Origin: an uncultured Oscillospiraceae bacterium
Lineage (GTDB): Bacteria > Bacillota > Clostridia > Oscillospirales > Oscillospiraceae
Assembly (NCBI GenBank): GCA_947627745.1
Contig: CANQXH010000009.1
Span: forward strand, 1-43,601
Length of the DNA stretch: 43,601 nucleotides
Direction of reading: 5' to 3'
A program made the position numbers and the translations under genes. How positions within the stretch are numbered: the stretch's first letter is position 1; every line of letters begins with the position of its first letter. This document shows positions 16,330 to 16,838 of this stretch, piece after piece. The notes below the pieces were generated by a model. The model was not told the origin of the DNA. It did not search any database and saw nothing but the letters and a program-made list of their open reading frames with translations.

Positions 16330-16838
16330 ACGCGATCGGGTCTGTAAGCCGGGTTCTGTTTTGACAGCCATCTATCTAGTCCCGCCGTTGCCGGCGGGAT
16401 CCAGCCACCTCTTGGGGACGGCCGGGCCAGCCTCATGTCCCACACACGGTGTTGCTCCGGATAGAGTTTACAGCGGTCCCATGTCTCCATGGGCCGGGTG
16501 CGCTCTTACCGCGCCTTTTCACCCTTACCGCGTCGGAACAAGCTGCGTATCATTCGCTTCGCCGCTGAAGCGGCAAAGCTCATTCGCTCCGCTGTTCCTC
16601 CTTTCCCCACCGGAACTTAGGTTCCGGCGGGGGCCCCATTTGGAAGATATAAAGCAAGCTCCTTATCGTTCGCTGCTTCTCCTTTCCCCGATTGGGGGAC
16701 GCGGCGGTATCTTTCTGTTGCACTGGTCCTGGGGTCACCCCCGGCGGGCGTTACCCGTTATCCTTGCCCTGCGGAGCCCGGACTTTCCTCACGGGGCGCC
16801 TTTCGGCATCCCCCCGCGGCTGTCCAACCCGGTCGCCA
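16330..16838 (-). ncRNA. rnpB: RNase P RNA, type A-like, with enlarged P12
   Basis: - strand contains GAGGAAAGTCCGGGCTCC, CCAGTGCAACAGAAAGATACCGCC, GGTAAGGGTGAAAAGGCGCGGTAAGAGCGCACC and AACCCGGCTTACAGACCC; P1 closes GCGACCGGGT with ACCCGATCGC (one mismatch). Confidence 0.93.

Follow-up and report, generated by a model that had tools for sequence, protein, structure and literature searches.

A small palindromic repeat within helix P12 of the RNase P RNA gene of an uncultured Oscillospiraceae bacterium

The only RNase P RNA gene (rnpB) found in the genome of an uncultured Oscillospiraceae bacterium carries a large insert in helix P12. We analysed a 43,601-nt stretch of this genome (the window) together with related genomes, and conclude that a small palindromic repeat, non-autonomous in kind, probably inserted into the 3' strand of P12 and was later duplicated and partly decayed. 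It is most likely selfish DNA tolerated in a peripheral helix, and a benefit to RNase P need not be assumed. The features of the gene and its insert are given in Table 1.

Table 1. Features of the rnpB gene and its P12 insert in the window.
Feature	Position	Strand	Basis
Sigma-70-type promoter of rnpB (TTGACA, 17 nt, TACAAT)	16843..16871	-	11 of 12 consensus positions
rnpB, class A RNase P RNA	16329..16835	-	RF00010 match, complete (model 1-367)
P12 base, 5' strand (CCGCGTC)	16698..16704	-	Sequence and fold
Repeat unit 1, partly deleted, without hairpin 1 and the inner hairpin	16638..16697	-	R1 26.6 bits, weak alone; alignment with G036
Repeat unit 2, complete (GGGG CCCC-hairpin-GGGG AAAGGAG hairpin-2 TTGTTCC)	16535..16637	-	BLAST and R1
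Hairpin 1 of unit 2 (CCCCGCCGGAAC/GTTCCGGTGGGG, 12 bp)	16605..16632	-	Fold and pairing in 60 copies
Hairpin 2 of unit 2 (GGAACAGC ... GCTTGTTCC around GCTTTGCCGC/GCGGCGAAGC)	16535..16598	-	Covariation
P12 base, 3' strand (GACGCGG)	16528..16534	-	GACG agrees with the conserved right end of dispersed copies (rnpB and non-rnpB alignments)

The rnpB gene matched RF00010 with 238.1 bits (E 2.3e-76, gathering score 100), and the model was covered from end to end, which by sequence and structure places the RNA in class A. This was the sole RF00010 match in the window's genome (G000), a draft of 150 contigs that is an estimated 98% complete. Because it is the only copy in so complete a genome, the RNA is likely to be catalytically active on precursor tRNA. 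Two promoter-like sites of this quality were found in the region compared with 0.3 per shuffle. In the Rfam scan neither the group I and group II intron families nor any other family besides RF00010 matched over rnpB. The gene lies downstream of rpoC (7656-11381, plus strand), and tuf, encoding EF-Tu (15006-16217, plus strand), converges on it. Three other genomes (G059, G330 and G295) gave more than one RF00010 match each; the extra matches could be fragments, contaminating sequence or a true second RNase P RNA.

The preliminary description of this DNA placed an insert of about 163 nt on the P12 base and regarded the helix as greatly enlarged. Both statements hold: the sequence agrees at the positions of the two base strands, the RF00010 alignment puts a large insertion in P12, and the P12 segment measured 187 nt compared with 18-43 nt by the same measure in plain members of the genus. 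The predicted fold of the 181-nt P12 had a free energy of -91.4 kcal/mol compared with -63.0 +/- 4.5 for 200 shuffles (z -6.3), none of which folded as well. Unit 2 matched the unit consensus by BLAST with 88% identity over 101 nt (E 1.7e-31) and scored 98.0 bits with the covariance model R1. Three hairpins had also been proposed for the insert. The second and third (16632-16605 and 16598-16535) are as described, while the first is less certain: the predicted fold encloses the first arm in a stem between CCCCC (16698-16694) and GGGGC (16637-16633) and does not form a local CCCCaatcGGGG hairpin. The two arms that start almost identically (GGGGAAAGGAGAAGCAGCG and GGGGAAAGGAGGAACAGCG) occupy the same position in two repeat units. 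Alignment with the sister species G036 revealed two clean gaps in unit 1, one of 28 nt that removes hairpin 1 and one of 33 nt that removes the inner hairpin, and these deletions explain why the insert holds two similar arms.

The repeat unit is about 100-117 nt long and consists of two hairpins in the arrangement GGGGnCCCC-hairpin 1-GGGG, ARAGGAG, hairpin 2 and a GACGAG end. Two-sided changes were present at 13 of the 21 pairs of hairpin 2, a count equalled in none of 500 shuffles. For the hairpin 1 stem, 60 copies of differing sequence had a mean of 11.1 of 12 positions paired compared with 9.0 when the left side was shuffled, the latter value being high because the best stem was searched for each time. 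We searched for further copies with R1, which models the right ~83 nt of the repeat; its E-values are rough, and the search of the order was run under strict filters. Among 297 genomes from the order, 73 contained the repeat, belonging to 51 of 148 genera, and several of these genomes (including G293 and G321) hold at least 15 copies. A phylum sample of 300 genomes, few of them from this order, yielded five with matches: G000, G084 from the same family and order, and three from outside the order. R1 was trained in part on this order, so setting the order against the phylum compares abundance and is not an unbiased estimate of origin. Plasmid and phage collections gave only four weak matches. 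Matches on two Subdoligranulum variabile plasmid records at most hint that the order takes in relatives of Subdoligranulum. Compared with Rfam (E <= 0.1), the repeat hit no family, the only two matches being sub-threshold and far below the gathering score.

Searching the genome of the window with the insert uncovered a second copy (C64:5511-5589; E 3.4e-11, R1 88.7 bits), and a weaker one is present at C54:9198 (R1 43.8 bits). The C64 copy occupies the 5' end of an ORF. Judged by eye, this ORF resembles a DNA cytosine methyltransferase, and it is open through the repeat. These copies support the repeat-derived origin put forward in the preliminary description, which had left the choice between repeat insertion and internal duplication; probably both took place. 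By the test set in that description, the origin would have been refuted if close relatives had a P12 of equal size that changes gradually and if the arms had no copies elsewhere. The data contradict both conditions: P12 is plain in most of the genus, and the arms recur in this genome and in others of the order.

Occupied and uninterrupted alleles of the same genes argue for mobility. A primase-like gene of a conjugative element is occupied by the repeat in G095 (C2) and G353 and is uninterrupted in G095 (C1) and G145; the reading frame stays open through the repeat. An adjacent small gene of the conjugative element, in which the frame is also kept, is occupied in G095 and G319 and uninterrupted in two phage-collection records (MT838581 and MT838804). 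The identities of both host genes were judged by eye from their translations. The empty sites read X-GG-Y and the occupied ones X-GG-GGnCCCC...GACGA-GG-Y, a pattern consistent both with insertion in front of GG and with duplication of GG as a 2-bp target site, the boundary being ambiguous by two bases. MITEs have terminal inverted repeats and target-site duplications; here the two ends, GGGGnCCCC and GACGA, are not inverted repeats of one another, and a 2-bp GG duplication is possible but ambiguous. One conjugative-element region (L150:362-3273) contains three copies within 2.4 kb, and a pair of these lies in frame in two genes that are next to each other. In two other genomes the right end of the repeat overlaps the CCA end of a tRNA gene, tRNA-Arg at L103:705-798 and tRNA-Pro at L108:1501-1589, and at L075 a copy is followed by an apparent tRNA 3' fragment.

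A Y1 transposase was considered as the mobilising enzyme and rejected. Across the 297 genomes its occurrence was unlinked to the repeat (28 of 73 genomes with the repeat, 74 of 224 without; Fisher P 0.48), and it gave no match in G000, G293 or G321. We also looked for an autonomous element in the DNA that separates neighbouring copies; inspection by eye of the ORFs of three such regions turned up no transposase.

In 14 genomes from three families the repeat occupies P12 of rnpB, always in one orientation: G000, G036, G023, G026, G062, G034 and G077 (f1), G042, G109, G155 and G090 (f7) and G168, G140 and G106 (f3). The number of units differs, with two each in G036, G023 and G026, three in G062 and one each in G034 and G077. 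G000, G023 and G036 are identical over a 257-nt core and have different P12 repeats. Throughout the carriers the 3' strand of the P12 base holds the right end of the repeat, and the 5' strand is complementary, wholly or in part, to GACGnG. On an RNase P core tree that was built without P12 and included 13 of the 14 carriers, carrier status changed five times, with at least four changes forced by supported branches. These changes could be gains or losses. The surroundings and the unit sequences differ in the three families and suggest several gains; one old gain with many losses is less likely.

Other enlargements of RNase P RNA were seen in relatives. Moderately long P12 helices of unrelated sequence were found in G241 (93 nt) and G037 (75 nt); that of G241 (C107, L142) is one long perfect hairpin (CAGAAGACAGGGGTCAGAGGTCAGAAG...) and looks repeat-like. 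In G016 (L033:480-760, plus strand) and G027 (L038:400-640, minus strand) the P14 region of rnpB contains an insert of ~170-200 nt. This is also a dispersed repeat, with 12 matches in G016 and 13 in G028 and with inverted ends (GGGCACCTCTAAAAA/TTTTTAGAGGTGCCC) in some copies. Since it is unrelated to the P12 repeat, two different repeats have entered RNase P RNA within one genus.

We propose the following sequence of events. The repeat would be mobile, inserted by some enzyme, probably at GG, and would have entered the 3' strand of P12 in the only rnpB gene. Duplication and partial decay would have followed. The repeat would be transcribed and kept in the mature RNA as added stem-loops on P12, its right end (GACGnG) re-forming the P12 base with a matching 5' strand. 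Two features would account for its tolerance, the peripheral place of P12 and the self-contained folding of the repeat. PMC2858038 describes P12 as having no universally conserved nucleotides and as variable, and in some cases dispensable.

Retention in the mature RNA has a rival that we consider unlikely, namely that the insert is a spacer cut out of the transcript, for example by RNase III at the long hairpins, to give a two-piece RNase P RNA. Intervening sequences of some 23S rRNAs are cut out in this way and leave the RNA in pieces. Such cleavage would suit the predicted fold, in which GC-rich, nearly perfect hairpins of 10-12 bp stack on stems of greater length, but in several carriers only 4-7 bp of P12 base would hold the pieces together. 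About as unlikely is a second rival, in which the repeat-derived P12 has been put to use and is maintained by selection, for instance because it stabilises RNase P, binds a protein or serves in regulation. Site and orientation are identical in all carriers, and the constant orientation could reflect selection for the RNA form beyond passive tolerance. Compensating 5' strands keep the P12 base paired, and the hairpin 2 stems of the rnpB units change in compensating pairs (GGAACA/TGTTCC and GAAGCA/TGCTTC). Against a use in RNase P, the number and completeness of the units vary among species with an identical core RNA, most relatives do without the repeat, and the copies outside rnpB are equally conserved in structure. 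The structure is thus a property of the repeat and not of a role in RNase P. A further reading makes the repeat depend on the tRNA-processing RNA for its spread or survival, with P12 and tRNA 3' ends as preferred sites, because the repeat recognises structured RNA genes or hides within them, and with the P12 copies, all in one orientation, kept as functional parts. We regard this as very unlikely.

That P12 simply changed in length by degrees, with no mobile DNA involved, is highly improbable. The helix is known to vary and is sometimes dispensable (PMC2858038), and the P12 helices of G241 and G037 are moderately long with unrelated sequence. The presence of the same sequence at dispersed sites in this and other genomes already contradicts gradual change, and interrupted genes with uninterrupted alleles also stand against it. 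Misjoining of a repeat into rnpB during assembly is scarcely credible: repeats do break assemblies and the genome is a draft in many contigs, but the arrangement recurs in all 14 carriers, among them five species of one clade, and the flanking P12 base and the core are intact. A selfish repeat, tolerated in a peripheral helix, has the best support among these readings.

The closest parallels are the Rickettsia palindromic elements (RPE) and the short repeats in cyanobacterial RNase P RNA. PMC4316617 describes RPE as selfish elements of ~100-150 nt that lie in intergenic regions, functional RNAs and coding sequences and leave reading frames undisturbed. The P12 repeat is likewise short and palindromic, has covarying hairpins and a length within this range, sits in a functional RNA and in coding genes with the frame kept, and comes without an identified enzyme. 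It differs in belonging to another phylum, in having two distinct hairpins in fixed order with a conserved single-stranded linker (ARAGGAG), and in having entered the same helix of one RNA in several lineages. We therefore liken it to RPE in the way it works and do not claim membership by sequence. Among the papers accessible to us, none reported RPE in RNase P RNA.

REP sequences, which are moved by REP-associated tyrosine transposases (RAYT), are also hairpin-forming, orientation-specific dispersed repeats, and a GGAG beside a hairpin offers a tempting but tentative resemblance. REP/RAYT systems differ in their Y1 (HUH) transposase, which is absent from G000, G293 and G321. The short repeats (STRRs) of cyanobacteria are heptanucleotide repeats, whereas the P12 repeat unit is a structured repeat of ~100-117 nt. 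They are similar in being genomic repeats within an RNase P RNA gene, an occurrence for which PMC2858038 gives a citation. The MITE-like P14-region repeat of G016 and G027, members of the same genus, resembles the P12 repeat in being dispersed and in having entered RNase P RNA at a peripheral part, and differs in its sequence, its greater length and the inverted ends of some copies.

In these genomes nature supplies RNase P RNAs that carry from zero to three structured repeat units, in some cases on identical cores, and the tolerance of P12 in a universal ribozyme is thereby directly testable. Insertions of this kind should be anticipated by annotation tools and in surveys based on RNase P. 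Our findings suggest that palindromic elements living inside genes are not peculiar to Rickettsia.
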